Shown here in pieces: positions 2,564 through 33,143 of a DNA stretch of 64,000 nt. Under the pieces are notes generated by a model that was given only the letters and a program-made list of their open reading frames with translations, had not been told where the DNA came from and did no database searches. Both the position numbers and the translations under genes were made by a program. This stretch comes from Candidatus Tectimicrobiota bacterium (GTDB lineage Bacteria > JACPUC01), in NCBI GenBank assembly GCA_016192455.1, contig JACPUC010000006.1, positions 124,001 to 188,000 on the forward strand, read 5' to 3'. The first letter of the stretch is position 1, and each line of letters starts with the position of its first letter.

Positions 2564-3757
2564 TCAGATGATCCCGGCCTGCCGGAGTTCGGCGCACGGC
2601 TCGGCGCTCAAGCCGAGAAGCTCCTGGTAGTACGTCCGGTTGTGCTCGCCGAGCGCGGGCGGGCCGGCGTCGGGTCCCACCGGGGTTTCGGAGAGCTTCA
2701 TCGGGGAGGCTACCAGACGGGCGGTCTCCTGGCCGTCTCCCACGGGCACCTCGGCGATCATGCCGCGGGCCTGAATCTGCGGGTGCGCCACCACCTCGTT
2801 GATGCGGTTGATCTCGCCGTAGGCGATGCCGGTCGGCTCGAGGAGCTGCGTCCACTCCGCCGTCGTCCGCTGCGCCGTCAAGGAGCGCAGGATCTCATCC
2901 AGCTCCTCGCGGTGCGCCGTTCGCGCGTTCTTCTCCTGGAAGCGCGGGTCGGTCAGAAGGTGCGCCACGCCGGCAACCCGGCAGAAGCGCTGCCACTGGC
3001 GCTCCTCGCCGATGGCCAGGACGATGTACCCGTCGCCGGTGGGGTAGGCCTGGATGGGCGTCACCACGGGGTGTTTCGTTCCCAGCGGCCCCGCCACCTC
3101 GCCGGTGGCGAAGTAGCGCGCCACGGCGTTCTCCAGCAGCGCCACCTGGCAATCCATCATCGACACGTCGAGGAATTGGCCCCGGCCGCTGTTGCCGCGC
3201 TCGATGAGGGCGGCCAGCAGGCCCATGGCGGTGAACATGCCGCCGGCGAGGTCGCCGATGGAGTAGCCCACCCGCACCGGCTCGCCGCCGGGCGTGCCGG
3301 TGACGCTCACCGTGCCTCCCATCGCCTGCACCACCAAGTCGTAGGCGGCGCGCTGCGCCAGGGGACCTGTCTGCCCGAAGCCGGAGCAGGCGGCGTAGAT
3401 GAGCCGCGCATTCCGCTCCCGCAGCACGGGCCAATCGAGGCCCAGGGCGCGCATGACGCCGGGGCGGTAGTTCTCGACCACCGCGTCGGCGTGATCCACC
3501 AGCCGCAGGAAGAGGTCGCGCCCCCGCGCCTCCTTGAGGTTGCAGGTGATGCTCTTCTTGCCGCGATTGACGCTCAGGAAGTAGGTGCTCACGCCGTGCA
3601 CGAAGGGCCCGTTGCGGCGCGCCGGATCACCCCCTTCCGGCGCCTCCACCTTCACCACCTCGGCGCCGAGGTCGGCCAGGAGCATCGTCGCGTAGGGTCC
3701 GGCGAGGAACCGCGTCAGGTCGAGGATGCGGATGCCGTGCAGGGGTTTGGCGCGCAT
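2564..3757 (-). CDS. CaiB/BaiF family (class III) CoA-transferase
   Basis: This 397-residue protein matches formyl-CoA-transferase/CaiB family members in length and motifs. It opens with GIRILDLTRFLAGPYATMLL and has ADLGAEVVKVE early on. Asp169 in the segment YSIGDLAGG corresponds to the aspartate that carries the acyl group in this family, and GRGQFLDVSMMD follows. Such enzymes move CoA between organic acids. The substrate (formate/oxalate, succinate/methylsuccinate, carnitine, or an aromatic acid) cannot be told from sequence by eye. The reading frame stays open far upstream, but homology begins at the ATG at 3757, which I use as start. No partner acyl-CoA gene is adjacent. Confidence 0.9.
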   Translation of the reverse strand: MRAKPLHGIRILDLTRFLAGPYATMLLADLGAEVVKVEAPEGGDPARRNGPFVHGVSTYFLSVNRGKKSITCNLKEARGRDLFLRLVDHADAVVENYRPGVMRALGLDWPVLRERNARLIYAACSGFGQTGPLAQRAAYDLVVQAMGGTVSVTGTPGGEPVRVGYSIGDLAGGMFTAMGLLAALIERGNSGRGQFLDVSMMDCQVALLENAVARYFATGEVAGPLGTKHPVVTPIQAYPTGDGYIVLAIGEERQWQRFCRVAGVAHLLTDPRFQEKNARTAHREELDEILRSLTAQRTTAEWTQLLEPTGIAYGEINRINEVVAHPQIQARGMIAEVPVGDGQETARLVASPMKLSETPVGPDAGPPALGEHNRTYYQELLGLSAEPCAELRQAGII

Positions 3758-18737: not shown

Positions 18738-18767
18738 AATTTCATGGAGCAGGGCCTTAAATTCAAA

Positions 18768-18782
18768 TGAGTGTCATTCTCA
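18768..18782 (+). promoter_or_regulatory. Fur-like box upstream of ftr1 operon
   Basis: TGAGTGTCATTCTCA matches the 7-1-7 Fur motif (TGATAATNATTATCA) at 10 of 14 arm positions. The right half, ATTCTCA, is shared with the box upstream of apbE at 23640. It would overlap the transcription start, a repressing position. The iron-transport genes downstream support the reading. Confidence 0.5.
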
Positions 18783-18879
18783 CTTACGCTGCGGCGTCTG
18801 CTCCCCACCCTGGACCTTCCCACGCGCCGCCGCCAGCGGCAGGGTGGGAGAGGCAATCGCGTCGGCAAAGGGAATACCC

Positions 18880-20166
18880 ATGGAGGTTCTTTCCAAGCTC
18901 TTAGAGGCCCTCGTGGTGACGCTGCGCGAAGGCGTCGAGGCGGCGCTCGTCATCGGGATCGTGCTCGCCTACCTCGGCAAAACCCAGCAGCGCCACCTCG
19001 ATCGTTTCGTCTACCGCGGCTTGCTGGCCGCCGTTGGGGTGAGCTTCCTGACCGCTCTCTTGCTCTACAAACTCGGCCTGGATGCCGAAAACGAGCTCTT
19101 TGAGGGCATCTTCATGCTGCTCGCCGCGGCGCTGGTGGGGACCTTCCTCATCTGGATGTGGCGGACCAGCGGCACCCTGAAGCAGCGCCTGGAGGCCCGC
19201 CTTGGGCAGGTGACCGCGGCAGGATCGGGAGTCGGGATATTCTGCTTCACCTTCGTGATGGTGCTGCGGGAGGGCATTGAGACGGTGATGTTCCTCCTGG
19301 CGCTCTCCGCGAGCATCGGCGCCAACCCCTTCTACAATCTCCTGGGAGGCAGCCTCGGACTCCTGCTCGCCCTCATTTTCGGCATCCTCTTCGTGAAAGG
19401 GAGTGTGCGCGTCAATCTGAAGAGCTTCTTCGGCGCCACCAGCGTCGTCCTCGCACTGCTCCTCCTGAAGCTCGTGGCCAACGGCCTGCATGAGTTCTTC
19501 GAGGTCGGGGTGCTGCCCTCCACGCCATGGCTCCTTGCGGTGGTCGGATTCCTCACCAAGAAGAGCATCTCGGTCCTCATCCTCATCGCCTTGATCGCCA
19601 TCCCGGCCGCCGTGATGCTGCGCGATGGGCTGCGCAACCAGGCCGCCCTGCCCGATCCCTCCCTCTCGGAGGCGGAGCGGCGCAAGCTGCGCGCGGATGT
19701 CCGCCGCGCGAAACGCTGGACCGCCACCACGGCGGCGCTCGCTCTTGCCGTGAGCACACTGCTCGGCGTGTCGCTCGTGGCCGCGGCGCGCCGCGGTTTT
19801 GACCCGGCCCCGCAGGCCCTCGCCGCGAGCGCAACGATCCGCCTGCCGCTGGCGGAGGCGACGGCGCAGCCGATGCAGAAGTATGCCGTGGACCTCGACG
19901 GCGCCGCCGTCCGCTTCTTCACGGCGGTGAACGGCAAGGGTGGCGTTGCCGTCGCCTTCGACGCCTGCTCGATCTGTCCCGTCAAGGGATACTCCCATCA
20001 AGGCGATCATCTGGTCTGCAACAACTGCGGGGCGCCGATCGCCCTCCACAGCATCGGTGAGCAGGGCGGCTGCAACCCCATTCCCCTGTCCGCGGTGGTG
20101 ACCGAGGACGCCCTGGTGATTCGCGCGGCGGACCTGGCGGCGGAACGGGATCGCTTCCTGCGCTAA
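18880..20166 (+). CDS. FTR1-family iron permease fused to DUF2318 Fe-S-type domain
   Basis: A 428-residue fusion. The N-terminal part has seven or so transmembrane helices and both FTR1 REXXE iron-binding motifs, R16EGVE20 and R130EGIE134. After the last helix (about 287-303) a C-terminal extracytoplasmic DUF2318 domain carries Cys363, Cys366, Cys380, Cys383 and Cys398 (CSICPVKGY, CNNCGAPI). In epsilonproteobacterial P19-type clusters these two modules are separate genes next to the same pair of ABC permeases. ATG at 18880 is preferred over the GTG at 18844 because AAAGGG precedes it and homology begins there. It is the first gene of an apparent four-gene iron operon. Confidence 0.9.
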   Translation: MEVLSKLLEALVVTLREGVEAALVIGIVLAYLGKTQQRHLDRFVYRGLLAAVGVSFLTALLLYKLGLDAENELFEGIFMLLAAALVGTFLIWMWRTSGTLKQRLEARLGQVTAAGSGVGIFCFTFVMVLREGIETVMFLLALSASIGANPFYNLLGGSLGLLLALIFGILFVKGSVRVNLKSFFGATSVVLALLLLKLVANGLHEFFEVGVLPSTPWLLAVVGFLTKKSISVLILIALIAIPAAVMLRDGLRNQAALPDPSLSEAERRKLRADVRRAKRWTATTAALALAVSTLLGVSLVAAARRGFDPAPQALAASATIRLPLAEATAQPMQKYAVDLDGAAVRFFTAVNGKGGVAVAFDACSICPVKGYSHQGDHLVCNNCGAPIALHSIGEQGGCNPIPLSAVVTEDALVIRAADLAAERDRFLR

Positions 20167-20208
20167 CCCGGAGCAGTCAAACAGGCGTGGTCAGGAAAGG
20201 GGAGCTCG

Positions 20209-21594
20209 GTGCTCGGTCGTCTCCTCGTGAAGTCGCTCCTGAAGCAGCGCAGCCGGACGCTCCTCGTGCTGCTCTCCGCCGCCACGGCGGCCACGCTGAT
20301 CTCGGCGTTCCTCAGCCTTGCCTTGCAGCTCACGGAGAAGGTGGCGGCAGAGCTGCGCTCCTTCGGTGCCAACATCGTGCTGAGCCCGCGCGCCGAGCCG
20401 CTCGAGGTGGAGATCGGCGGTTTGAAGCACGTCGCCGCGGCGGAGGCGGCCTACCTCGACGCCGCCGACCTGCCGAAGATCAAGGGCATCTTCTGGCGGC
20501 ACAACATTGTCAGCTTCGCGCCGTTCCTCTCGGGCGCGGTGGAGGTGGAGGGGAGGCGGGTCCTCCTCGTTGGCACCTGGTTCCAGCGGCCGGTCGACGT
20601 GCCCGGTGGGGGGAGTCTGCTGATCCGCGGCGGCAGCCAGCGCCGGGCCGTCTCCGAGGAGGCCTTGCGGAAGGCGGCCATGACCGCCCCCAGCGAGGCG
20701 ACGACGTTTCGCGCCGGTGTGCGCACCCTGGCCCCCTGGTGGCAGGTGGAGGGGAGATGGCTCGGCAACGAGGAGGATGCCGTCCTCGTCGGCCGCCTCC
20801 TCAGCCAGCGACTCAATGTCGGCCCCGGCGGCACGCTGCGCCTCACCGCCGAGGGTCGAAGCATGAGCCTGCCGGTGCGCGGCATCGTCGCCACCGGCGG
20901 GCCGGAGGAAGAGCAGCTCTTCGTTCGCCTGGAACTCGCCCAGGCGATCCTGGGGCTCCCCGGCAAGGTGGAGAAGGTCCAGGTCAGCGCTCTGGTCAGC
21001 CCGGACAACGCGCTGGCGGGGCGCGCCGAGCGTATCGGCCCGGAGAAGCTCCCCCAGGAGGAGTACGAGAAGTGGTACTGCACGCCCTACCTCAGCTCCA
21101 TCATCCATCAGCTTGAGGAGGCGCTGCCGGCGGCGAAAGGGAAAGCGATCCGCCGGGTGAGCGAGGCGGAGGCGGGCTTCCTGGGCAAGATGCGGCTGAC
21201 GCTCCTCCTCATCGCCGGCATCGCCTTGGTGGTCGCCGCCCTCGGCGTCATGGCGACGCTCATGACAGCCATCTACGAGCGGCGCGAGGAGTTCGGGCTC
21301 ATGAAGGCGATCGGCGCCAACCGGTCGCAGGTGGGGCTGCTGCTCCTCCTCGAGAGCGGGCTGACGGGCCTGGCGGGCGGGGCGCTCGGTTATGCCGCGG
21401 GCCTCACCTTCACGCGGCTCCTCGCTGCCTCCGTCTTCTCCGCCGCGCCTGCCGCGCCGCCCTCCCTGGCGCTCCAGGGCCTCGTCCTCACCCTCACCCT
21501 CCTCCTCTCGGCGGGGGTGGCGCTCCTGGGGGCGTTGCTGCCGATGCGAGGCGCGATGCGGCTCGATCCGGTTCAGACCCTGCGAGGAGAGTAA
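20209..21594 (+). CDS. FtsX/MacB-type ABC transporter permease, first of pair
   Basis: A 461-residue permease of the MacB/LolC superfamily. It has an N-terminal helix (SRTLLVLLSAATAATLISAF), a large periplasmic MacB-type domain (about 40-300) and three C-terminal helices (LIAGIALVVAALGVMATLM, ESGLTGLAGGALGYAAG, LVLTLTLLLSAGVALLGALL). Such permeases are mechanotransducers moving or remodelling periplasmic partners rather than pumping solutes. GTG start with GGGGAG. In the analogous Campylobacter P19 iron locus, two FtsX-like permeases and an ATPase also follow ftr1, so a role in high-affinity iron uptake is likely. Confidence 0.85.
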   Translation: MLGRLLVKSLLKQRSRTLLVLLSAATAATLISAFLSLALQLTEKVAAELRSFGANIVLSPRAEPLEVEIGGLKHVAAAEAAYLDAADLPKIKGIFWRHNIVSFAPFLSGAVEVEGRRVLLVGTWFQRPVDVPGGGSLLIRGGSQRRAVSEEALRKAAMTAPSEATTFRAGVRTLAPWWQVEGRWLGNEEDAVLVGRLLSQRLNVGPGGTLRLTAEGRSMSLPVRGIVATGGPEEEQLFVRLELAQAILGLPGKVEKVQVSALVSPDNALAGRAERIGPEKLPQEEYEKWYCTPYLSSIIHQLEEALPAAKGKAIRRVSEAEAGFLGKMRLTLLLIAGIALVVAALGVMATLMTAIYERREEFGLMKAIGANRSQVGLLLLLESGLTGLAGGALGYAAGLTFTRLLAASVFSAAPAAPPSLALQGLVLTLTLLLSAGVALLGALLPMRGAMRLDPVQTLRGE

Positions 21595-21595
21595 G

Positions 21596-22711
21596 ATGCG
21601 CGGCATGCGCTGGATCATCCTCTGCGGCGCCCTGCGCCATCGCAAGGCGCGGGTCCTCCTCTCGGTGTCTGCCCTCACGCTCGGCGCCGCGCTCATCGTC
21701 ACCACGGTGAACCTGCGGCAAGGCATCCGCGGCAAGCTGGCCGCGGAGCTGCAGAACTACGGCGCCAACCTCCTCGTCACCCCGGCGCCCGGCGCCGCGC
21801 CGCAGCTCGCCGAGGCGCGCCTGGCGGTGCTTGAGGGGGAAGCGACGCGGGGTCGCCTGGTGGGGTACGCGCCGGTCCTCTACGTGAGAGCCAAGGCCGG
21901 CGGTCGCGACGTCGTCGTCGTCGGCACGGACGTCGCCGCCATGCAGCGCATTAGCCCCTGGTGGAAGGTGGCGGGGGCCTGGCCGCGGCGTCCCGACGAA
22001 GCGCTCGTCGGCGCCAACGCCGCGGCGAAGCTGGGACTGCGCGTCGGCGACAGATTTCGCGCGGCGCAGGGCGCAGAGGCGCTCGAGCTCGCCGTAGCCG
22101 GCATCCTGCAGACGGGGGACGCCGAGGAGCACCAGGTCTTCGTGGCGCTGCCGGGCGCCCAGCGTCTTGCCCAGCGCCCCGGGCAGATCACCTCGGTGCT
22201 CCTCCGCAGCCGCGCCGGGGAGGGTCTCGAGGCCCTTGCCGCGGCGCTCCAGGCGGCCTGGCCGGATGCCGTGGTGCGCACCCTGCGCCAGACCGCGCTG
22301 GCGGAAGCAGCGCTGCTCGGCAACCTCGAGCGCTTCCTCCTCGCGGTCAGCCTTCTCGTCCTCTTCGCCGCCGGACTCTGCGCCTTTGCGACGATGAACA
22401 CGGAAGCCCTGGAGCGCAAGGTCGAGATCGCACTCATGCGGGCCCTCGGAGCCGATGGGCGGGAAATCGGCTGGATCTTCACCTGCGAGGCCCTGGGGGT
22501 CGGCCTCCTGGCGGGGCTCCTCGGCTGCGTCCTTGGTATCCTCCTGGCGCTGGTTATCGGCATGAGCGTCTTTCATACCCTCGTCGTGCCGAGTTTCGTC
22601 AGCCTCCCCGCCGGACTCCTGGCGGGCCTGCTCGTGTCGCTCCTGGCAAGCCTGTCGGTTGTCCGCCGCGCGGCGAGCCTGCCCCCGGCGCTGGTACTGC
22701 GCGGCGAGTGA
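21596..22711 (+). CDS. FtsX/MacB-type ABC transporter permease, second of pair
   Basis: A 371-residue paralogue of the preceding gene, starting one base after its stop, so the two are tightly coupled. The layout is again one N-terminal helix, a periplasmic domain with GANLLVTPAPGAAPQL, and three C-terminal helices (FLLAVSLLVLFAAGLCAFATM; EALGVGLLAGLLGCVLGILLA; LLAGLLVSLLASLSVV). ALERKVEIALMRALGADGREI is the cytoplasmic coupling region contacting the ATPase. It presumably forms a heterodimer with the first permease. Confidence 0.87.
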   Translation: MRGMRWIILCGALRHRKARVLLSVSALTLGAALIVTTVNLRQGIRGKLAAELQNYGANLLVTPAPGAAPQLAEARLAVLEGEATRGRLVGYAPVLYVRAKAGGRDVVVVGTDVAAMQRISPWWKVAGAWPRRPDEALVGANAAAKLGLRVGDRFRAAQGAEALELAVAGILQTGDAEEHQVFVALPGAQRLAQRPGQITSVLLRSRAGEGLEALAAALQAAWPDAVVRTLRQTALAEAALLGNLERFLLAVSLLVLFAAGLCAFATMNTEALERKVEIALMRALGADGREIGWIFTCEALGVGLLAGLLGCVLGILLALVIGMSVFHTLVVPSFVSLPAGLLAGLLVSLLASLSVVRRAASLPPALVLRGE

Positions 22712-22778
22712 GCGCTACCACGTCGACAAGGGGACACGTCACCCCGATGCCGCTTCACTCTCGCTCGAGGGATTGATC

Positions 22779-23519
22779 ATGGCGCCCTTGATTCACCTGC
22801 ATGAGTTGACGAAGGACTACCCGAACGGCGTGCGCTCCCTCGATCGCATCAGCGTGGAGATCGAACGGGGCGAGTGGGTTGCCGTGATGGGAGCCTCAGG
22901 CTCGGGGAAGACCACCCTCCTGAACATGATCGCCGCCCTCGACCGGCCCACCGCGGGCTCGCTCCGGATCGACGGCATCGACCTCGTCAGTCTTGGAGAG
23001 GAGGATCGCACGCGTTTCCGGCGCGAGAAGGTGGGCCTCGTCTTCCAGCAGTTCTACCTCATCCCTTACCTGAGCGCCGTCGAGAACGTCATGCTGGCGC
23101 AGTACTTCCACAGCATGGCCGACCGCGACGAAGCCGCCCGGGCGCTCCATCAGGTGGGGCTGGGAGAGCGGCTCCACCACCTGCCGGCGCAGCTCTCCGG
23201 TGGTGAGCAGCAGCGCGTCTGCCTGGCGCGGGCGCTGATCAACGACCCCGCCATCATCCTCGCCGACGAGCCGACGGGGAATCTCGACGCGCAGAACGAG
23301 GTGCTGGTGATGGAGCTCTTTCAGGCCCTGCACGCCGCCGGCCACACCCTCCTCATCGTCACCCACGATGCGCACATCGGCGCCCGGGCGGACCGCATCG
23401 TCCAGCTCGAACACGGGCGCGTCGTTCCCGCCGGAGCAGAGCCTGCCGCTCCTCTGATGGGGAATGGCGACGCCGGGGCCGCCCGCCGACAGGTGGCCTG
23501 GACGCCGGGCGGGGCCTGA
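22779..23519 (+). CDS. ABC transporter ATPase, LolD/MacB type
   Basis: A 246-residue ATPase. Walker A is at 38-45 (GASGSGKT), the Q-loop is [13 protein letters not shown], the signature is LSGGEQQR and Walker B is [12 protein letters not shown], followed by a switch His (VTHD). This is the LolD/MacB/FtsE group that pairs with FtsX-type permeases, consistent with the two preceding genes. The unit ends about 80 bases before the next promoter. The last 30 residues are non-conserved. Confidence 0.93.
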
Positions 23520-23602
23520 GGGGGAGGTCGCCCCTCGCGCCGGCGCGGCGCCGACTCCCGGCCGTGACGGTGGTCGGGCCGGGCCTGTCACGCAGACGCT
23601 GC

Positions 23603-23631
23603 TTGACAGGAGGGGGGAGGGCGCCTATATT
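23603..23631 (+). promoter_or_regulatory. Consensus sigma70-type promoter for the apbE unit
   Basis: TTGACA (23603-23608), a 17-base spacer and TATATT (23626-23631) form a near-perfect housekeeping promoter. Its strength in a GC-rich genome implies it needs repression. A Fur-like box begins immediately downstream. Confidence 0.75.
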
Positions 23632-23639
23632 TTGAGATT

Positions 23640-23654
23640 GAAACTCATTCTCAT
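23640..23654 (+). promoter_or_regulatory. Fur-like box overlapping the apbE transcription start
   Basis: TGAAACTCATTCTCA matches the 7-1-7 Fur motif at 11 of 14 arm positions. Together with TTGAGAT just upstream it forms an extended repeat array from 23632. The sequence CTCATTCTCA resembles the site before ftr1. It would cover the start region of the promoter, as Fur repressor sites normally do. Confidence 0.6.
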
Positions 23655-23686
23655 TTATCCTAACGACGTTGCAGGTCGATCGCCGC

Positions 23687-24778
23687 ATGCTCTCCCGACG
23701 CCGCTTTCTCCGTAGCACCCTGGGCGCCCTTGCCGGACTGCTCGTCCTCCAGCGTCCCGCTCATACCTCAGCGCTGCGGCGCTACCGCGCCCTGCCCATG
23801 CTCGGCACGCTCGTCGAGGTGAGCATCTCGGCGTCGCCGGAGACCGCCGCCCCACCGCCGCGCCAGGCCGTCTCGCCCAGCGAGGCATGCTTCCGCACCG
23901 CGTTCGCCGCCGTGCGGCAGGTCGACCACCGCATGAGCGTCTTCCAGGCCGCCAGCGACGTGAGCCGGGTCAACGCCGCCGCCGGCTCCGGCGCCGTGCC
24001 GATTGGCGCCGACACCGCCCTTGTCCTCACGACGGCGGGGCACATCGCCAGGCAGAGCGGCGGCGCCCTCGATGTCACGCTGGGCCGCCTGAGCGCCTGG
24101 CAGCGCCGCAGCGGAGCGTTCGTCCTGCCCCATCGCCTCATTGATGCCGCGCTTGCGGCTGGAGGCATGGCTGCCCTGCACCTCGGGGCCGGAGGCAGGC
24201 TCGCCCGGCTCGCCACGCCGCAGGCGCAGCTCGATCTCGGCGCGATCGCCAAGGGCTACGCGGTGGATGCGGCACTCACGGCGCTGCGGCGGGATAGGGA
24301 TGTGACAGCGGCGCTGGTCAACGCGGGAGGCGATCTCCGGGCCTGGGGAGAACCGCCGGGCGCGGCCGCCTGGCGGATCGGCGTGCGGCACCCGCTGGAG
24401 CCGCGCCGCCTGCTCCTCGTCCTCCTTCTCGAGGAAGGCGCGGTGGCCACCTCCGGGAACGACCTCGAGGGCTACGGGGAGGGGCAGGCTCGCGCCGCGT
24501 CGGGCCTGGTGCTCGATCCCCGCAGCGGCGCCGCGACGCCGCGGGATCTCACCGCCACGGTGCTCGCCGGCTCCGCCATGGAGGCCGATGCGCACGCCAC
24601 GGCGGCGCTGGTCCTCGGCCCCGAGGAGGGCCTCCCCTACCTTGCCAGGGTGGGGGCGGAAGGGCTCTTCGCGCGCGGCGTCGAGCGCAAGTCCGGCCCG
24701 CGCCTCCTGGTGCTCTGCGGGGAGCGCACCCGGAGCCGCATCGTGTGGCTGGCGGAGGAGGCGGAGATCGTCTCGTAA
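23687..24778 (+). CDS. apbE: ApbE-type FAD:protein FMN transferase, Tat-exported
   Basis: ApbE covalently attaches FMN from FAD to a Thr/Ser of target proteins outside the cytoplasmic membrane. The 363-residue protein begins with a twin-arginine signal (SRRRFLRSTLGALAGLLVL). Family landmarks are LPMLGTLVEVSI near the N-terminus, LDLGAIAKGYAVDAAL for FAD binding, VNAGGDLRAWG, and ATVLAGSAMEADAHATAALV near the metal site. The likely substrate is the FMN-binding protein encoded two genes downstream. ATG at 23687 is chosen over TTG at 23669 because the Tat motif starts there. Confidence 0.93.
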   Translation: MLSRRRFLRSTLGALAGLLVLQRPAHTSALRRYRALPMLGTLVEVSISASPETAAPPPRQAVSPSEACFRTAFAAVRQVDHRMSVFQAASDVSRVNAAAGSGAVPIGADTALVLTTAGHIARQSGGALDVTLGRLSAWQRRSGAFVLPHRLIDAALAAGGMAALHLGAGGRLARLATPQAQLDLGAIAKGYAVDAALTALRRDRDVTAALVNAGGDLRAWGEPPGAAAWRIGVRHPLEPRRLLLVLLLEEGAVATSGNDLEGYGEGQARAASGLVLDPRSGAATPRDLTATVLAGSAMEADAHATAALVLGPEEGLPYLARVGAEGLFARGVERKSGPRLLVLCGERTRSRIVWLAEEAEIVS

Positions 24779-25019
24779 GGAAGGTCAGCGCCCCGCCGGC
24801 CGAGCCTGCGGGGCGCCACCACGAGCAGCATGCCAGGGGACAACGGGGACGCGGCTGGCCAGAGCACGACCCCCGTCGCCCCTGGGGGTGGTTCCGACTG
24901 CAGAGCTCCCATGGAGTGCAGCAACGGAACCCCTGCGTGTTCCTCTCGATCTCTCTACCACAGGGGTGAAGAGAGGTAAACCTTGCGCGCCATGCTCTCC
25001 TGTCTTGTTCCTTGCTGGC

Positions 25020-26462
25020 ATGGAGGTGTCGAAGGTGCATCCTCTCTCCGACCGAGTGCATCGTCTCAGAGTCGGCATGTGGTGGGCGGCGTTCCTGGGC
25101 GCGTGGTTTCTGCTGCTCCTGGCGCTGGCGGACGTCACGGCGCAGGAGCGCCCGGCGGCCGGCGGCGCTTCGCCCGCGGAGGTCCGCATGCAGCAGCTTG
25201 AAGCGGAGATGCGGGCCCTGACGAAGGAGCTCGCCGCCATGCGCGAGCAGTTCAAAGGCGACGGGCGGCTGGCCGAGGTGGATCGCAAGATCGAGGTGCT
25301 GGCCGGTGAGCTGGAGAGCCTGCGCACCCAGCTCACCGTGCCGGCGAAGAAGGAGCTGAAGAGCCAGTTCGGCCTGGGGCCGGCGGCCTCGTCGGTCTAC
25401 CAGCTCACCCAGGGGCTCTCCATCGGCGGCTACGGCGAGGCGAGCTACCGCAGCTTCTTCGATCCCGACGATCCCCCTGCCAAGGTGGACTTGACGCGGG
25501 CAGTCCTCTACTTCGGTTACAAATTCTCCGACCGTATCGTCTTCAACTCTGAGATCGAGTTCGAGCATGCCACCACGGGTTCGACGGTGAGCGCCGGGAG
25601 CGGCGAGGCCTCCGTAGAGTTCGCGGCGCTGGACTTCTTCCTGAGGCCGGAGATCAACGCGCGCGCCGGTCTGCTCCTCGTTCCCATGGGGTTCCTCAAT
25701 GAGACGCACGAGCCGCCGTTCTACCATGGCGTGCAGCGGCCCGAGGTGGAGCGCCAGATCATCCCCTCCACCTGGCGCGAGAACGGCTTCGGCATCTTCG
25801 GCAATCTCGGCGACAAGGTGAGCTATCGCACCTACCTCATCAACAGCGTGAACGCCAAGGGATTCCGCGCCTCCGACTTGCGCAACGTCCGGCAGAAAGG
25901 GAACGAGGCGCTGGCCGAAGACTTCGCCTGGGTCGGGCGCCTCGACGTGAAACCGATCCCGGAGCTCCTCCTTGGCGGCTCCTTCTTCCTGGGCGATACC
26001 GGCCAGGACCAGACGTTCGCCGGACGCAAGGTGGACGCCTTCACCGCGCTCGGCTCGCTGCACGCCCAGCTTCGCTATCGTGGAATGGAGCTGCGGGGCC
26101 TAGGGGTGTGGGGGTCCATCGACGACGCCGAGGCGCTGAGCGCCGATCCGGCCATTCGCGGCCCCATCAGCGAGGAGGTCTGGGGCGCCTACGGCGAGAT
26201 CGCCTACGACCTCATGCGCCTCATCAAGCCCGAGTCGCAGCAGTCGCTCACGCCCTTCTATCGCTTCGAGCGCTGGAACACCCAGGATGACGTGCCGCGC
26301 GGCTTCGTCGCCGACCTGCGGCGCGATGTCACCCTCAACACCTTGGGCCTCGACTACAAGCCCCACCCGAACGTGGTCTTGAAGAGCGAGTTCCGCTTCT
26401 TCGAGCAGGAGCGGGGCGAACGGTCCGACGAGTTTGCCTTAGGCATCGGCTATGTCTTTTGA
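25020..26462 (+). CDS. Outer-membrane porin-like beta-barrel with N-terminal coiled coil
   Basis: A 480-residue secreted protein. After a hydrophobic signal (WWAAFLGAWFLLLLALADV, cleavage near AQ-ER) comes a heptad-rich coiled coil (MQQLEAEMRALTKELAAMRE). Then a barrel with alternating patterns begins at LSIGGYGEASYRSF and ends in GIGYVF, a terminal aromatic typical of outer-membrane barrels. It resembles phosphate-selective/porin O-type proteins by pattern, with no TonB box or plug. The alternative start ATG 25077 would give a tighter signal peptide. Its position in the apbE unit suggests passage of iron or an iron-bearing small molecule across the outer membrane. Confidence 0.75.
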   Translation: MEVSKVHPLSDRVHRLRVGMWWAAFLGAWFLLLLALADVTAQERPAAGGASPAEVRMQQLEAEMRALTKELAAMREQFKGDGRLAEVDRKIEVLAGELESLRTQLTVPAKKELKSQFGLGPAASSVYQLTQGLSIGGYGEASYRSFFDPDDPPAKVDLTRAVLYFGYKFSDRIVFNSEIEFEHATTGSTVSAGSGEASVEFAALDFFLRPEINARAGLLLVPMGFLNETHEPPFYHGVQRPEVERQIIPSTWRENGFGIFGNLGDKVSYRTYLINSVNAKGFRASDLRNVRQKGNEALAEDFAWVGRLDVKPIPELLLGGSFFLGDTGQDQTFAGRKVDAFTALGSLHAQLRYRGMELRGLGVWGSIDDAEALSADPAIRGPISEEVWGAYGEIAYDLMRLIKPESQQSLTPFYRFERWNTQDDVPRGFVADLRRDVTLNTLGLDYKPHPNVVLKSEFRFFEQERGERSDEFALGIGYVF

Positions 26463-27079
26463 TGAAGGAACGGCTTTCGATGCGGCAACGCTTCGTGGTG
26501 GGTCGTAGCGGCTGGGGCCGCGGCGCGGGTCTCGGGTTCGCGGCGCTCTGCCTCGGCTTCTGGAGTCTTGGCCTCTGGGGCTGGGGAGGTCCGGCCGCGC
26601 AGGCGCGGGTCTTCTTCAGCATCGAGGAGGGGCTGCAGCAAGCCTTTCCCGAGGCGACACGCTTCAGCAGCCGCACCTTCATCCCCACGCCGGAGCAGCA
26701 GGCCGCCCTGGAGAAACGCGCCGCGGCGGCCTTCTCGCGCCAGCTCCTGAAGGTCTGGATGGCGCACGCCGGGGAGCGGCTCCTCGGCTACGCCAGCATT
26801 GACATCCACACCGTGCGCACGCTCCCCGAAGCGGTTCTCATTGCGCTCACGCCGCAGGGGAGCGTGCGCACCGTCATCATTCTGGCGTTCCATGAGCCGT
26901 CCGAGTACCAGCCGCCGGGGCGGTGGCTCGAACTCTTCCAGGAGAAGCGTCTTGCCCCCACCCTGGCGTTCGGGCGGGATATCGCCGGCATCACCGGCTC
27001 GACGTTGAGCTCCCGCGCCATCACGAGTTCGGTGCGCCGGGCGCTCGCTGTGTACGAGGTTTTTCTGCGAGGATCGTAA
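26462..27079 (+). CDS. FMN-binding-domain protein, probable ApbE substrate
   Basis: A 205-residue exported protein, with a signal-like hydrophobic stretch at about 22-47. It has one FMN_bind domain resembling NqrC/RnfG. The flavinylation-type motif is GSTLSS at 179-184, placing the acceptor at Thr181. The preceding core (HTVRTLPEAVLIALTPQG...VIILAFHEPSEYQPP) fits the domain. The start codon overlaps the porin stop (TGATG). Next door is an apbE gene, so covalent FMN attachment is highly probable. The domain is not fused to heme or Fe-S modules, so electrons would have to come from another protein, plausibly the membrane protein that follows. Confidence 0.85.
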   Translation: MKERLSMRQRFVVGRSGWGRGAGLGFAALCLGFWSLGLWGWGGPAAQARVFFSIEEGLQQAFPEATRFSSRTFIPTPEQQAALEKRAAAAFSRQLLKVWMAHAGERLLGYASIDIHTVRTLPEAVLIALTPQGSVRTVIILAFHEPSEYQPPGRWLELFQEKRLAPTLAFGRDIAGITGSTLSSRAITSSVRRALAVYEVFLRGS

Positions 27080-27080
27080 C

Positions 27081-27596
27081 ATGCGCTTCGTGGTGACCGG
27101 CGAGTGGCGCGCCAATACGTTGCTCCGCCTCATCCTTCTCCTCTTCCTGCTCTTCGTCGCCCTCCTCTGGCTGACGAACGCGCTCCTCTTCTTCTCCAAG
27201 ATGAGCCTCTCGCCAGCATCCATCGTGGAGTTCTACCGTGGCTCCGAGGCGCGCTTCCTGACCCCCCGCAGCTACCAGGGGCTGCTCGAGATGAGCCACT
27301 TCCACCTCTTCGCCATGGGCATCCTGCTCATGACCATGGCGCACCTGCTGCTCTTCGCGCGCCTCTCGAACCGCGTCAAGGCGTGGACGATCCTCATCTC
27401 CTTCCTGGGGGCCCTCGCCGATGAAGGGGGCGGCTGGCTCGTGCGCTTCGCGCATCCCGGTTTCGCCTCCCTGAAGCTGGCGGGGTTCGTCGCCTTGCAG
27501 CTTGGCCTGGGCGTTATGATCATCGCCTGCGCCCTGGCGGCGGCCTACCCGCAGACGCTGGCCTCGCGCGCCTCGGGGATCATTTCCTCGACGTAG
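27081..27596 (+). CDS. Four-helix membrane protein with conserved-looking histidines, unknown family
   Basis: 171 residues, one base after the FMN-binding gene. Four hydrophobic segments are visible: about 15-38, 72-93, 100-121 and 131-156. Helix two holds SHFHLFAMG and MAHLL, giving His73, His75 and His88, with His125 before helix four. Two His on one helix or facing helices are compatible with heme b ligation. I do not recognise the family. Placement after ApbE and an FMN protein suggests a quinol-to-flavin electron conduit, an inference only. Confidence 0.7.
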   Translation: MRFVVTGEWRANTLLRLILLLFLLFVALLWLTNALLFFSKMSLSPASIVEFYRGSEARFLTPRSYQGLLEMSHFHLFAMGILLMTMAHLLLFARLSNRVKAWTILISFLGALADEGGGWLVRFAHPGFASLKLAGFVALQLGLGVMIIACALAAAYPQTLASRASGIISST

Positions 27597-28600: not shown

Positions 28601-29857
28601 GTGGTCGCTGCCTCACGTATCCCGAAGGGTCCCGACATCGTCCCGCCTGTTCTCTCCAGTACGGCATCACAGTATCGCTGGATCATCCTGGGCGTCGTCT
28701 CCCTGAGCATGATGTGCTACGCCCTGGTCTACCAGTCCATCCCGCCGGTCATCTCATTCATCATCCGGGACCTCGGCATCAGCCATGGTCAGGCTGGACT
28801 CTTGACGAGCGGCTTTGCCTTGCCTGGGATCATCATCGCCGTGCCGGTCGGCATCCTGGCCGGCGTCTACGGTCCACACCGGCTCGGCGTCCTGGCGTAC
28901 GCCGCGCTCGCCGGCGGTGCGCTCCTGGCGGCTCTGAGCACCACGTACGCCCTCCTCCTCGCCGGCAGGCTTCTGGCCGGGATCGGCGCCATGAGCCTGA
29001 TGGTCCTCCTGCCGCCGATGTTGGTTCATTGGTTCCACGGCCGCGAGGTCGGGCTGGCCATGGGGGTCTTCCACACCTCTTACACCGTGGCGGCGATCCT
29101 TGCGTTCAACGTCTACAGCCACATCGGCGCCGCCTTCACCTGGCAGACCACACTCTTCGTGAGCGCCCTCATCGCCCTGCTGGGCGGCATCCTGTATGCC
29201 AGCCTGGTGCGACCGTTGCCCTCAACTACGGCCTCCGTCAGCCGGGCTGCCACCTTCCGGGCCGACTGGTCGCTGGTGCTGCGCCGCATCTGGCCGCTCG
29301 CCCTGTCGTGGTTTTGGCTCAATGCCGCCATGCTCTCGATGTTCACCTTCACGCCCGACGCCCTCATCGAGCGCGGCTGGACGGCCGGCGCCGCGGGCCG
29401 GCAGACGAGCATGGTCCTGTGGCCGGCTTTCTGTCTCACCTCCTTCGCCGGCATCCTCATCGACCGCACCCAGCGCAAGCTGCTCTTTATCGTCGGCGGC
29501 GGGGGACTGACCACCATCGCCATCCTCGGTTTGGCCACGCCGGCGATTCCCGTCTGGTCCGCCATGCTCGTCATGGGGCTGGGGATTTCCTTCTTCCCCT
29601 CGGCCCTCTACTCCCTGCCGAATGACCTCGTGCCGCCGCGCGCCTTGAACCTCGCCTTCGCGCTGTTGATCACCTTCCAGAACCTGGGGGTGGCGCTGGG
29701 GCCGTTCTTTTCAGGCCGCGTGCGCGACGCGACGGGAGCCTACACCTGGCCCTACCTCCTGATGACCGCCTACCAGGCTCTGGCGCCGCTCTCGGCGCTG
29801 GCGATCCTGCCGATCCGGCGGCGCGTCCAGCAGGAGCGCCGCCACGCCGGCGCCTGA
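28601..29857 (+). CDS. Major facilitator superfamily transporter (CynX/NimT-like)
   Basis: A 418-residue membrane protein with twelve hydrophobic segments. The first helix pair (RWIILGVVSLSMMCYALVYQ, ISHGQAGLLTSGFALPG) and PVGILAGVYGPHRLG after helix two form the MFS motif A region. ALLITFQNLGVALGP lies near the end. The overall pattern resembles the cyanate/nitrate-like permease group, but the substrate is unknown. The GTG at 28601 is used. A start at a later position is possible because the first 25 residues are not conserved. It converges on the NCS2 permease. Confidence 0.85.
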   Translation: MVAASRIPKGPDIVPPVLSSTASQYRWIILGVVSLSMMCYALVYQSIPPVISFIIRDLGISHGQAGLLTSGFALPGIIIAVPVGILAGVYGPHRLGVLAYAALAGGALLAALSTTYALLLAGRLLAGIGAMSLMVLLPPMLVHWFHGREVGLAMGVFHTSYTVAAILAFNVYSHIGAAFTWQTTLFVSALIALLGGILYASLVRPLPSTTASVSRAATFRADWSLVLRRIWPLALSWFWLNAAMLSMFTFTPDALIERGWTAGAAGRQTSMVLWPAFCLTSFAGILIDRTQRKLLFIVGGGGLTTIAILGLATPAIPVWSAMLVMGLGISFFPSALYSLPNDLVPPRALNLAFALLITFQNLGVALGPFFSGRVRDATGAYTWPYLLMTAYQALAPLSALAILPIRRRVQQERRHAGA

Positions 29858-29889: not shown

Positions 29890-31209
29890 TCAGTCGTCCA
29901 ATGAGGTGTCAGGGGCAGCCGTGGGGGTGGGGGAGGAACGGAACAGCAGGCCATCCAGCACGATGACGAAGATCATGGCGGAGAGCACCGGGTTCCGCAG
30001 GATGAGGGCGAGGACGTTCGGCATGCCCCGCAGGGACTCCGGCGGCAGTGCCGTGAAGCCGAGGGCGCAGAAGATGGCGAAGCCGACCGTGAAGGCGTGG
30101 CGCTTTGTGAAGCGCGCCGTTCCGGCGCCCCAGATTTCGGCCCCCAGCCCGATGTTCATGCCGGCGATGGCGAGCAGCACCGCCCCGGCGACGGGACGCG
30201 GAATCGCCGCCAGCAGGGCGCTGAGCGGTCCGAGGGAACTGAGCACGACGAGGAGCGCCCCGCCCGCCGCCATGGCCCAGCGGCTGGCGACGTTGGTCAT
30301 GGAGACGAAGCCCAGGCTGCCGGGGTAGCCGACGAGGGGCACCGCCGAGAGCAGCGCCGCCAGCGTTCCCTCGCCCAGGCTGTTGATGACCGCCTGCCGC
30401 AGCAGGTGGCCCTCCTGCCGTCGCACGCGCACCGCCGTGGAGACGCCGAGGGTGGCCCCCATGCCGAACGCCGCGGTGGCGAGCTGCACGAAGGTGAAAA
30501 GAATGAGCAGCCCCAGGGGCGGCCAGCGCAGCCCCAGGAGCGCCGGCCGCGGCGGGCTGATCCAGGGCAACACCGGCACCTGCACGAGCCACCAGCCCGG
30601 CAGGAGACGAAAAAGAAGGTAGCCCAGGGTCACCACCACGATCACCGGCACCGTGGCGATGAACCCCCGCAGGCGCAGGGCGATGAAGCCGCAGAGGAGG
30701 GCCAGGCCGAACGCCGCCAGGCCCGGTCCGGCGCCCTGGGCGACCATGAGGCGGATGCCGAACGGCGCGGAGGAAAGGCCGATCATCATCACCAAGGTGC
30801 CGATGACCAGCGGGGTGAAGAGGGGCCGGATGCGCCCCACCAAGCGGCTGGCGGCGAGGATGGCCACGATGACGCCGCTGAGCGCCAGGGCGCCGAAGAT
30901 GCTGGCGAAGTCATGCCCGGCGCGATGCGACTCGAGCATGGCGAAGATCGTCAAGACGAACGGTCCCGACATCATGCAGAGGGCGTGACCGAAGAACGCC
31001 TGCAGCAGTGATCCCAGGCCGATGATCCAGAGGGTTGCGGCGATGAACTTGCCCAGCACCGGCCCCTCGAGGTTCCATCCCAGGCCGAGGAGCACCAGGC
31101 TGAACATCAGGGGGTAGGTGGCGAACGCCACCCACTGGGCCGCATAGATGAGGAGCTGCAAGGCGGGAGGACGCTCTTCGACGCCGAATCGGAAAGCTTG
31201 CGCCGTCAT
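29890..31209 (-). CDS. NCS2-family (xanthine/uracil-type) permease
   Basis: A 439-residue polytopic membrane protein of the nucleobase-cation symporter-2 family, with about 12-14 helices. Family regions include the opening LLIYAAQWVAFATYPL, ALCMMSGPFVLTIFAMLES near the substrate-binding helix 3, and IPRPVAGAVLLAIAGMNIGLGAE in the later half with a following FTKRHAFTVGFA. Purines, uracil or ascorbate are the known substrates of the family. Two Mo-hydroxylase genes and a carbamate kinase occur about 15 kb away, so purine uptake would be consistent. That is context only. Confidence 0.85.
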   Translation of the reverse strand: MTAQAFRFGVEERPPALQLLIYAAQWVAFATYPLMFSLVLLGLGWNLEGPVLGKFIAATLWIIGLGSLLQAFFGHALCMMSGPFVLTIFAMLESHRAGHDFASIFGALALSGVIVAILAASRLVGRIRPLFTPLVIGTLVMMIGLSSAPFGIRLMVAQGAGPGLAAFGLALLCGFIALRLRGFIATVPVIVVVTLGYLLFRLLPGWWLVQVPVLPWISPPRPALLGLRWPPLGLLILFTFVQLATAAFGMGATLGVSTAVRVRRQEGHLLRQAVINSLGEGTLAALLSAVPLVGYPGSLGFVSMTNVASRWAMAAGGALLVVLSSLGPLSALLAAIPRPVAGAVLLAIAGMNIGLGAEIWGAGTARFTKRHAFTVGFAIFCALGFTALPPESLRGMPNVLALILRNPVLSAMIFVIVLDGLLFRSSPTPTAAPDTSLDD

Positions 31210-31514
31210 CCGGGCCCTCGTGAGGCGGAGCAGACTGCGCGGGGAAGAAGCGTGGCGCGTCGGAAGCCGCGCGGGCCCGCTGCCCGGCGATGGTACCGCC
31301 GCCGCGGCGGACCTGTCAATGAGGGCGCCGCCGGCGTTCGCTGCGCCAGCGCGGCGCCAGGCGTCGCCCCCGCGCGGCGCCCCGCGGCCAAGGCGCCGGC
31401 ATTGCGCCGTCGGGGTCGAACCGGCTAGGCTGGCATGGTGCGGGACCGCAGGTCCTCCCCGCGGCGGCAGGCCGGTCGAAGTTCTCACCACTGCTGTGCG
31501 CCAACCGAGGTCCC
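31210..31514. other. Divergent intergenic region, no gene seen
   Basis: 305 GC-rich bases between the divergent NCS2 permease and the spermidine-synthase-like gene. I see no structured element or clear promoter hexamers. Confidence 0.5.
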
Positions 31515-33143
31515 ATGGCAAAGCGCGCCCTCACCCCGCAGCGGGCAACCTCCGCTGCTCACCGCGGCGCAGAGCGAGCCACCCTCCCTGGCTGGTTCCT
31601 CTACCTCACCGTCTTTCTCTGCGGCCATGCGGTGATGATGGTCGAGATTCTGGGGGCGCGCATCATCGGGCCGTACTTCGGCGTCAGCCTCTACGTCTGG
31701 ACCGCCATCATCGCCGTCACCCTCGTCTCCCTGACGCTCGGGTACTGGTGGGGGGGATGGCTGGCGGACCGCCGGGGATCGGCCGATACGCTCTTCACGG
31801 TGATCAGCGCCGCCGGTCTCTCCATCCTCCTCATTGCGCTGGTGAAGAACGCCGTGCTGACGGCGAGCGGCTCGCTTGGCCTCCGCCTGGGGGCGCTCAC
31901 GAGCGCCTTCCTTCTCTTCAGCGTGCCGCTCCTCCTCCTTGGCGTCGTGGCGCCGCTGGCGGTGAAGCTGCAGGCCTCCTCGCTGCTGGGGCTGGGCGGC
32001 ACGGTCGGCAGGCTCTACGCCGTCTCGACGCTGGGGAGCGTCATCGGCAGCATCGACACCGGCTTCTTCCTCATCCCCCACCTGGCGGTGCCGAGCGTCC
32101 TGGCGCTCGCCGCCGCGGTCCTCCTGGCGCTCGGCGCGGCCTACTGGGGGATGCGCCGCAGCCCCCGCGCCGCCGTGGCGCTCCTCCTGCTGCCGGCGAT
32201 GGGGATCCCCTGGTGGCCCAGCCCCTCCGCCACCTTCACCCGCAACGGCGTCACCTGGAAGGTTATCGACAAGCGTGAGAGCCCCTACGGCGTCATCCAT
32301 GTCCTGGACATCACGAGCGGCGCGCAGACGAGCCGCATCCTGCTGAATGACGGCATTGGGCAATCGGCGATGGACGTCGCCACGGGCTTGTCGCTGGCGC
32401 CCTACACCTACGGCATGGAGCTGCTGGCGCTGCGCTACCAGCCGCGGGCCAAGCGCGCCCTCGCCGTGGGGCTGGGCGCCGGTCTCCTCAGCCGGGGGCT
32501 CGAAGCGCGCGGCATCCGCACCGATGTCGTCGAGATCAACCCCGTCATCCTCGAGGTGGCGCGGCGTCTCTTCAGCTACCCGGGCGCCACGGGCCGCACC
32601 TTCCTCGAGGACGCCCGGGTCACCATCCAGCGCAGCCAGGAGCGCTATGACATCATCAGCCTCGATGCCTTCCTGGGCGAGATCGCCCCGAGCCACCTGT
32701 TGACGCGCGAGATGTTCAGCGCCATCGACCGCCTGCTGAGCCAGGACGGCGTCGTCATCCTCAACCTGCCCGGCTATCGCCGCGGGCCGCAGAGCCTTGC
32801 CGCCGCCTCGCTCCAGGCCACGCTGCGGCAGGTCTTCGCGCAAGTCGATGTCTATTTCTCCCCGTTCAGCCAGCGCCCCCAGGACGCCGATTTCGGCAAC
32901 CTCCTCTTTGCGGCCTACCGCCACGAACCGCTCGACCCCTTGCCGACGCCTCAGCTCACGGTCCACCCCAGCGCCCAGGCAGCCCTGCGGAACCTTCTTG
33001 CCTCGCGATTCCGCTTGCCGACCGAGGGCGCCCTCCTTCTCACCGACGACTACAACCCCATCGACTACTACGACCTTGCCGCCAAGGAGGCCTTCCGCCG
33101 CCGCATGCAGGAGATCCTCGGCGCGAATATCCTCCTGCAGTGA
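31515..33143 (+). CDS. Membrane-anchored spermidine-synthase-like protein
   Basis: A 542-residue protein in two parts. The first 225 residues contain about seven transmembrane helices (WFLYLTVFLCGHAVMMVEIL..., SLYVWTAIIAVTLVSLTLGYW). The C-terminal 300 residues form a spermidine-synthase/SAM-type Rossmann domain with ALAVGLGAGLLSRGLEARGI and DVVEINPVILEVARRLF, then DAFLGEIAPSHLLTREM. Such fused 'MFS/spermidine synthase' proteins are common in GC-rich environmental bacteria. Their aminopropyl donor and acceptor are not established. GAGG lies before the ATG. It stands alone. Confidence 0.85.
   Translation: MAKRALTPQRATSAAHRGAERATLPGWFLYLTVFLCGHAVMMVEILGARIIGPYFGVSLYVWTAIIAVTLVSLTLGYWWGGWLADRRGSADTLFTVISAAGLSILLIALVKNAVLTASGSLGLRLGALTSAFLLFSVPLLLLGVVAPLAVKLQASSLLGLGGTVGRLYAVSTLGSVIGSIDTGFFLIPHLAVPSVLALAAAVLLALGAAYWGMRRSPRAAVALLLLPAMGIPWWPSPSATFTRNGVTWKVIDKRESPYGVIHVLDITSGAQTSRILLNDGIGQSAMDVATGLSLAPYTYGMELLALRYQPRAKRALAVGLGAGLLSRGLEARGIRTDVVEINPVILEVARRLFSYPGATGRTFLEDARVTIQRSQERYDIISLDAFLGEIAPSHLLTREMFSAIDRLLSQDGVVILNLPGYRRGPQSLAAASLQATLRQVFAQVDVYFSPFSQRPQDADFGNLLFAAYRHEPLDPLPTPQLTVHPSAQAALRNLLASRFRLPTEGALLLTDDYNPIDYYDLAAKEAFRRRMQEILGANILLQ

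Follow-up and report, generated by a model that had tools for sequence, protein, structure and literature searches.

In the flavinylation systems described in the available text of PMC8238504 and PMC11334425, the flavin transferase ApbE shares an operon with an FMN_bind protein bearing the motif [S/T]G[A/S]T and with a membrane partner, and there is a link to iron assimilation. These elements recur in a stretch of 64,000 nucleotides from Candidatus Tectimicrobiota bacterium JACPUC01 (contig JACPUC010000006.1, positions 124,001 to 188,000; hereafter the window), in which a gene for an FMN_bind protein, the predicted carrier of covalent flavin mononucleotide (FMN), is followed by one for a small membrane protein. 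The membrane partners named in the available parts of those papers fall into five classes, NapH-, MsrQ-, PepSY-, DsbD- and Rnf/Nqr-like, and by Pfam and NCBIfam (E up to 1) the window protein matches none of them; the window unit also includes a porin, a word absent from the main text of both papers. We lean towards the view that the window encodes an iron-regulated, flavinylated extracytosolic reductase with a membrane electron carrier of a new family, which at this locus accompanies a Fet-type uptake system.

The nearest precedents for the uptake genes are the FetMP-FetABCDEF/P19 cluster of Campylobacter jejuni (PMC10783030) and FtrABCD (PMC11966278), which, to the extent of their available text, share with the window FTR1, an FtrD/DUF2318-like protein, two FtsX permeases and an ATPase, with the window's gene order matching fetM, fetA and fetBCD of C. 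jejuni. The window differs in that FTR1 and the FtrD-like part are fused, P19 has no match in the genome, and no thioredoxin corresponding to FetE/FetF was matched among the Pfam-scanned genes of the cluster (18844-27593); in place of P19 and FetE/FetF stand genes for ApbE, a porin, the FMN_bind protein and the membrane protein. The 2021 survey (PMC8238504), in its available part, reported 260 P19/FTR1 clusters with FMN_bind, mostly Gram-positive, and presumed that certain flavinylation clusters are connected to the membrane electron pool by proteins whose genes lie elsewhere, P19 iron clusters being one of its two examples.

Three other systems invite comparison. The available text of PMC13322032 (2026) describes a Methylobacter inner-membrane-anchored monohaem cytochrome with four transmembrane helices, encoded beside mtrA-mtrB-type genes; distant relatives of the window protein fit it, compared by description only, whereas the window protein itself has no CxxCH, has a histidine at position 88 (H88) and is partnered by a flavoprotein, not c-type cytochromes. 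FezC and the DUF4405 cytochromes are likewise short membrane proteins with histidines and a connection to flavinylation or iron, and FezC was proposed, in the available part of PMC11334425, to form haem sites by dimerising; against a rough DUF4405 alignment, the window family has no significant profile similarity. Finally, the reductase, multicopper oxidase and FTR1 set of fungal Fre-Fet3-Ftr1 reductive iron assimilation, as outlined in the available sources, has a counterpart in one Methylomirabilota locus (L120), a likeness by parts with no claim of reductase homology; the flavin here would be FMN bound covalently to a periplasmic protein of its own.

A Conserved Unit of Porin, FMN_bind Protein and Membrane Protein

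The genes at the centre of this account are:

23687..24778, plus strand: ApbE flavin transferase (Pfam PF02424, E 4.5e-57 on 23720-24775; start from the sequence)
25020..26462 (alternative start 25077), plus strand: outer-membrane beta-barrel porin with an N-terminal coiled coil (conserved partner, AlphaFold2 model, Foldseek)
26462..27079, plus strand: FMN_bind protein of 205 amino acids (Pfam PF04205, 22.2 bits; RnfG profile match)
27002..27004, plus strand: Thr181 codon, predicted FMN attachment site (Thr invariant in 26 of 26)
27081..27596, plus strand: membrane protein of 171 amino acids with four transmembrane helices, unnamed family (family alignment, AlphaFold2 model)

The FMN_bind ATG overlaps the porin stop codon, and a single base (27080) separates the FMN_bind gene from the membrane-protein gene. 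The membrane protein is a member of an unnamed family without an entry in Pfam or NCBIfam: the window member matched no family in either at E up to 1, and eight relatives from all tiers (defined below), searched against Pfam at E up to 5, gave nothing above cut-off. Matches below cut-off to Sarcoglycan_1 (E 0.42) and to cytochrome b561 PRK11513 (E 0.054) were set aside, as were Cytochrom_C matches (E 0.06-0.07) that fall on CxxCH loops. In the literature searched, which did not extend to supplements, where a mention is possible, the flavin-paired family was not found named.

The window genome is the sole one of its phylum, with no close relatives for comparison. Relatives from other lineages were sorted into full-length, window-like proteins (T1), those at about 70-105 bits (T2) and those below about 55 bits that match mainly helices 2-4 (T3); hhalign links T1 with both of the other tiers, at E 8.4e-28 for T2 and E 9.4e-14 for T3. 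Conservation and adjacency were counted over the distinct sequences of fetched loci, identical ones once, and other genome-search matches stand outside these counts. The frameshifted and cut L029 was left out of the membrane-protein alignment and of the residue and adjacency counts, the partial T3 sequence L042|7136 was left out of the T3 hhalign alignment and kept in both counts, and the partial matches G304 (149 bits), G292 (99 bits) and G197 (83 bits) are in neither. By genome, matches of all tiers together turned up in 30 of 95 from the phylum to which the Methylomirabilota genome L005 belongs, in 70 of 90 from the class that includes L003 and in 108 of 151 Methylococcales (the order of L008), 93 of these last at 200 bits or more by a hand count.

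Of the 28 loci with membrane-protein relatives that a scan of named genomes yielded, all but L013, L014 and the frameshifted L029 (25 of 28) have a porin-like gene and FMN_bind 5' of the relative and on its strand. FMN_bind is adjacent (no more than 2.5 kb away and on the same strand) in 70/71 T1, 9/9 T2 and 0/8 T3, i.e., in 79 of the 80 relatives with three conserved histidines, a frequency on which we rejected a chance neighbourhood. Many loci are only about 3.5 kb long, so that porin and ApbE counts are lower bounds: a porin adjoins at least 58/71 T1 and at least 4/9 T2, and ApbE lies nearby on either strand in at least 35/71 T1 and in 9/9 T2. The nine T2 loci have the order FMN_bind-ApbE-membrane protein, which differs from the porin-FMN_bind-membrane protein order. 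The conserved unit is thus porin-FMN_bind-membrane protein, often with ApbE. A first-pass annotation of the window, which had correctly placed the two genes one base apart and found no family for the second, had described them as a coupled pair; the coupling is strongly supported by this adjacency in more than one gene order, but the pair alone is not what is conserved. In taking it for a minimal unit, the annotation had overlooked several features that suggest a role in acquiring iron: the porin, ApbE, the Fet-type iron cluster and the Fur-like sites.

The FMN_bind domain is barely above its Pfam cut-off (22.2 versus 22 bits; 24.1 bits in the genome-wide search), and the profile of the family also picks up RnfG of solved complexes (9eri_G, E 2.3e-8). 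Thr181, which the annotation had rightly placed in a flavinylation motif, closes the tetrad T178-G179-S180-T181, which fits the [S/T]G[A/S]T attachment motif and in which G179 and T181 do not vary across the 26 aligned sequences. The N-terminus is signal-like, as judged by eye, and ApbE begins with MLSRRRFLRS, by eye a twin-arginine-like signal. This is the single FMN_bind match in a genome that is 88 % complete, which leaves the adjacent ApbE without another evident target, and the motif suggests that ApbE attaches FMN to Thr181.

The porin model (AlphaFold2, predicted local distance difference test score (pLDDT) 86.6) is a beta-barrel with N-terminal helices, its closest solved fold by Foldseek being OmpM1 (8byt, E 8.8e-14); a sequence search of solved structures gave nothing at E 0.1. 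The T2 porin of L120 barely passes Porin_O_P (21.3 versus 20.9 bits), and the cut porins of L007, L015 and L025 were left out of the porin alignment. The porin may admit substrate. In seven loci (L003, L006, L009, L011, L015, L016 and L019) ApbE is on the opposite strand; in L006 it adjoins an Nqr-like operon on its own strand, convergent with the cassette, and may owe its position to Nqr. A gene for an NnrU-like membrane protein lies 5' of the porin in L003, L006, L011, L016 and L019, with Pfam support for L006.

Histidines and Relatives of the Membrane Core

The AlphaFold2 model of the membrane protein, from 28 sequences, has a pLDDT of 90.7 and helices at 13-40, 65-90, 97-123 and 126-155. 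Its only histidines are H73, H75, H88 and H125, and the codons of the three that matter most for what follows are:

27297..27299, plus strand: His73 codon (conserved in 71/71 T1, 9/9 T2 and 7/8 T3)
27303..27305, plus strand: His75 codon (conserved in 71/71 T1, 9/9 T2 and 8/8 T3)
27342..27344, plus strand: His88 codon (conserved in 71/71 T1, 9/9 T2 and 0/8 T3)

H125 is kept in 51/71 T1 and in none of the nine T2 sequences, and was rejected as a family-wide ligand. The first-pass annotation had located all four residues correctly; three of them proved to be conserved. E70, E115, W119, P126 and K132 are also kept in 71/71 T1, and W119 in 8/8 T3. The presence of H88 tracks an FMN_bind partner in the sampled relatives, L013 excepted.

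The window protein has no CxxCH anywhere in its 171 amino acids; six of the seven aligned T3 sequences (all but L067) have one in the loop between helices 1 and 2. Attachment of c-type haem takes place in the periplasm, and because the T3 motif sits in this loop, the loop should lie outside the membrane, which would place H73 and H75 on the periplasmic half of helix 2 and H88 on its cytoplasmic half. H73 and H88, both on helix 2, are 15 residues apart, a distance close to that between the histidines on the helices of di-haem cytochrome b. Two bis-His haems would need more histidines than the three of one chain, so the simplest model with haem is a dimer, and the membrane protein may hold haem as a homodimer.

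Comparisons of fold gave the membrane protein no identity. The best Foldseek match of its cofactor-free model was LTC4 synthase (E 0.28, the others worse), and VIA-align returned soluble helix bundles and LTC4S/mPGES enzymes up to Z 8.2, a soluble helix bundle being the top match, with a cytochrome c oxidase chain (8c8q_C, Z 6.1) among the matches listed; none of these was used. By sequence, the best solved structure was SpaS (E 0.035), taken as noise.

In L044, from a Methylococcales genome, a T3 gene starts just 3' of an MtrB/PioB gene (428.7 bits; stretch L044:2141-6198), which is itself preceded by a gene with ten CxxCH motifs; the L044 T3 protein has the CxxCH loop and belongs to the tier tied to T1 by the profile homology given above. 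No multi-CxxCH gene was seen in the stretches around the T3 genes of L041, L042, L043, L045 and L047. In L013, from Methylobacter, the gene before the membrane protein encodes an FTR1-Rieske fusion (PF03239 115 bits, PF00355 41.7 bits; L013:6947-8507), which takes the usual place of FMN_bind at a locus where no FMN_bind was found, and the same genome has a second membrane-protein copy in the usual porin-FMN_bind setting (L046). An FTR1-Rieske fusion also directly precedes the membrane protein in L014, multicopper oxidase pieces lie near the fusion in L013 as in L014, and in a Methylobacter metagenome-assembled genome a frameshifted membrane-protein gene (L029:769-1110) lies behind an FTR1-Rieske-like gene. 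One core thus occurs beside a flavinylation partner, next to a Rieske fusion protein and bearing c-haem motifs, as would be expected if it carried electrons. The electron conduit proposed earlier is partly supported, by the conserved histidines, the c-haem relatives (one beside mtrAB) and the FTR1-Rieske fusion of L013, with the changes that H125 drops out and a dimer would be needed.

Iron Context and Fur-like Sites

Preceding ApbE, the porin and the pair are an FTR1-FtrD fusion, two FtsX permeases and an ATPase of the ATP-binding cassette (ABC) type, with two Fur-box-like sites:

18766..18784, plus strand: Fur-box-like site AATGAGTGTCATTCTCACT, about 95 bp 5' of the FTR1-FtrD start (consensus match, 3 mismatches)
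18880..20166, plus strand: FTR1 iron permease fused to an FtrD-like domain (FetM + FetA-like; Pfam PF03239 127.9 bits, PF10080 88.2 bits)
18880, plus strand: start of the FTR1-FtrD gene, read from the sequence
20209..21594, plus strand: FtsX-type ABC permease (Pfam PF02687, E 4.7e-19)
21605..22711, plus strand: FtsX/MacB-type ABC permease (Pfam PF02687 and PF12704 on 21392-22708; start from the sequence)
22779..23519, plus strand: ABC transporter ATPase (Pfam PF00005, E 9.5e-37)
23637..23655, plus strand: Fur-box-like site ATTGAAACTCATTCTCATT, in the ABC-ApbE intergenic gap about 31 bp 5' of ApbE (consensus match)

The FtrD-like domain PF10080 we take to be DUF2318. Matches to a typed Fur consensus were scored by mismatch count; at up to 3 mismatches these two sites are the only ones in the 64-kb window, against 0 in 100 shuffles. 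A degenerate pattern fitted to the 18766 site matches nowhere else in the 4.46-Mb genome, and the genome has one match to a Fur-family protein. Over 46 sequences, up to 3 mismatches gave 14 merged sites in 12 sequences, where 40 permuted consensus sets averaged 0.17 with a maximum of 2; up to 4 mismatches gave 33 sites in 22 sequences, where the permuted sets averaged 1.73 with a maximum of 7. The loci are partly related, so these counts are not independent, and site positions were judged by eye. In L008, L010, L011, L018, L020, L021 and L026 such sites lie shortly 5' of the porin start. Together, these matches suggest that Fur controls the locus. Three successive Fur-box-like inverted repeats stand just 5' of the porin gene in L026 (L026:5257-5412), and L013 has an exact match to the typed consensus at 3153.

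Iron genes adjoin the unit in other lineages also. Among Methylomirabilota, FTR1 lies beside it in L113, L116, L117, L120 and L122, and a multicopper oxidase in L028, L106, L107, L109, L110, L111, L114, L119 and L120; Pfam backs four of the five FTR1 genes and the oxidases of L028, L106, L111 and L120, the rest resting on phmmer. Some Methylomirabilota units adjoin ABC uptake genes, L005 has P19 and a TonB receptor, and iron-transport neighbours are also found in Methylobacter loci. A near-full FTR1 lies in the cluster in three of the four genomes with FTR1 (G000, G012 and G013), while G001 has only part-length matches, located elsewhere. G000 has in addition a second FTR1-like gene (contig 20, 240719-241351), a 678-amino-acid frame with two part-length FTR1 matches. 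The iron link is nonetheless not universal across the family.

A Proposed Electron Path and Its Alternatives

In the explanation that we favour, the FMN_bind protein would be the periplasmic part, and the membrane protein the inner-membrane part, of an extracytosolic reductase under iron control. Once exported to the periplasm, ApbE would attach FMN to Thr181; the membrane protein would draw electrons from the membrane, most likely from quinol, and these would cross by way of the His site on helix 2, with H73/H75 in the periplasmic half and H88 in the cytoplasmic half, a site most simply pictured as b-type haem bound jointly by two chains, and the membrane protein would hand the electrons to FMN. 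The pair thereby probably passes electrons out of the membrane and helps iron uptake. We infer quinol as the donor, ferric iron as the acceptor and the direction of flow; the outward direction, from membrane to flavin to ferric iron, is the more likely because multicopper oxidases adjoin the unit in Methylomirabilota and because flavin is a poor oxidant for ferrous iron. Tentatively, and as a possibility that we would not yet bet on, the family may be an inner-membrane electron carrier of a new class that works as a homodimer, the H73...H88 helix of each chain contributing to a two-haem wire from quinol to the flavinylated protein; together with FTR1, joined in some lineages by a multicopper oxidase, it would form a bacterial counterpart of fungal reductive iron assimilation. 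Evolution would then have coupled one and the same core to different partners: covalent FMN, a Rieske-FTR1 fusion, and c-haem and MtrAB.

A number of results weigh against the favoured explanation. P19 (PF10634) has no match in the 88 % complete genome, FTR1 was found in only 4 of the 27 genomes with the membrane protein, and ApbE stands beside only 35 of the 71 T1 relatives, though many loci are short. No Fur-like site was found even at 4 mismatches in 24 of the 46 sequences, including six of the seven loci with convergent ApbE (L003, L006, L009, L015, L016 and L019), and some sites that were found do not precede cassette genes, in loci that are partly related. As for haem, the three conserved histidines of one chain cannot ligate two bis-His haems, no b-type cytochrome fold was among the Foldseek and VIA-align matches listed for the model, and hhalign of DUF4405 against the membrane-protein profiles was not significant (probability 1.4 % for T1, 1.8 % for T2 and 0.1 % for T3), with a rough DUF4405 alignment of 17 extracted pieces from 19 tried, several of them off target. 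The best local alignment to DUF4405 did fall on the His helix, but at a probability of 1.4-1.8 % it was not used.

One alternative is an extracytosolic redox system, of respiration or of the envelope, that has no dedicated part in iron uptake, serving for example an external acceptor that enters via the porin, with the iron genes as lineage-specific additions. By the iron-gene queries, no iron transporter was found in the stretches examined for Myxococcota-type, Wallbacteria and most Methylococcales loci, and one relative adjoins MtrAB-type extracellular electron-transfer genes; however, the seven loci with Fur-like sites just 5' of the porin belong to genomes without an FTR1 match, and we think such a system unlikely. 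Were electrons to flow inwards, flavin and membrane protein would move the electron of ferrous iron to the quinone pool in place of a multicopper ferroxidase, and FTR1 would import the ferric iron made on the spot. Yeast Ftr1p is stated, in the available part of PMC11966278, to need the multicopper oxidase Fet3p, and the window cluster has FTR1-FtrD with no multicopper oxidase among its scanned genes. The oxidase is, however, already present in L120, together with FTR1 and the FMN_bind, ApbE and membrane-protein set, as it is alongside the set in L106, L107, L109, L110 and L111; 23 of 27 genomes have no FTR1 match, and the chemistry of flavin noted above is also unfavourable, which together make such a sink quite improbable. 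The HxH motif with the invariant E70, E115 and K132 would equally suit a metal site, and with no known b-type cytochrome fold matched, the membrane protein could be imagined as a metal-binding or assembly protein, in iron or copper handling or as a membrane anchor of the flavoprotein. To this we allow very little probability, given homologues that carry a c-haem motif or pair with Rieske-fused FTR1, and given the 15 residues from H73 to H88 on one helix, close to the spacing in di-haem cytochrome b.

Other Features of the Window

Downstream of the cluster lie genes for a major facilitator superfamily transporter (window 28601-29857), for a xanthine/uracil-type permease on the minus strand (29890-31521) and for a spermine-synthase-like protein just below its Pfam cut-off (31515-33143). 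Rfam and tRNA scans of the window gave no matches, nor did a search of a plasmid collection.

Implications for Flavinylated Iron Systems

The family is a candidate for the membrane link of flavinylation clusters such as the P19 iron clusters. If the favoured explanation is true, it would provide a testable electron path for iron assimilation, and one membrane core would join flavin-based and cytochrome-based extracytosolic systems.

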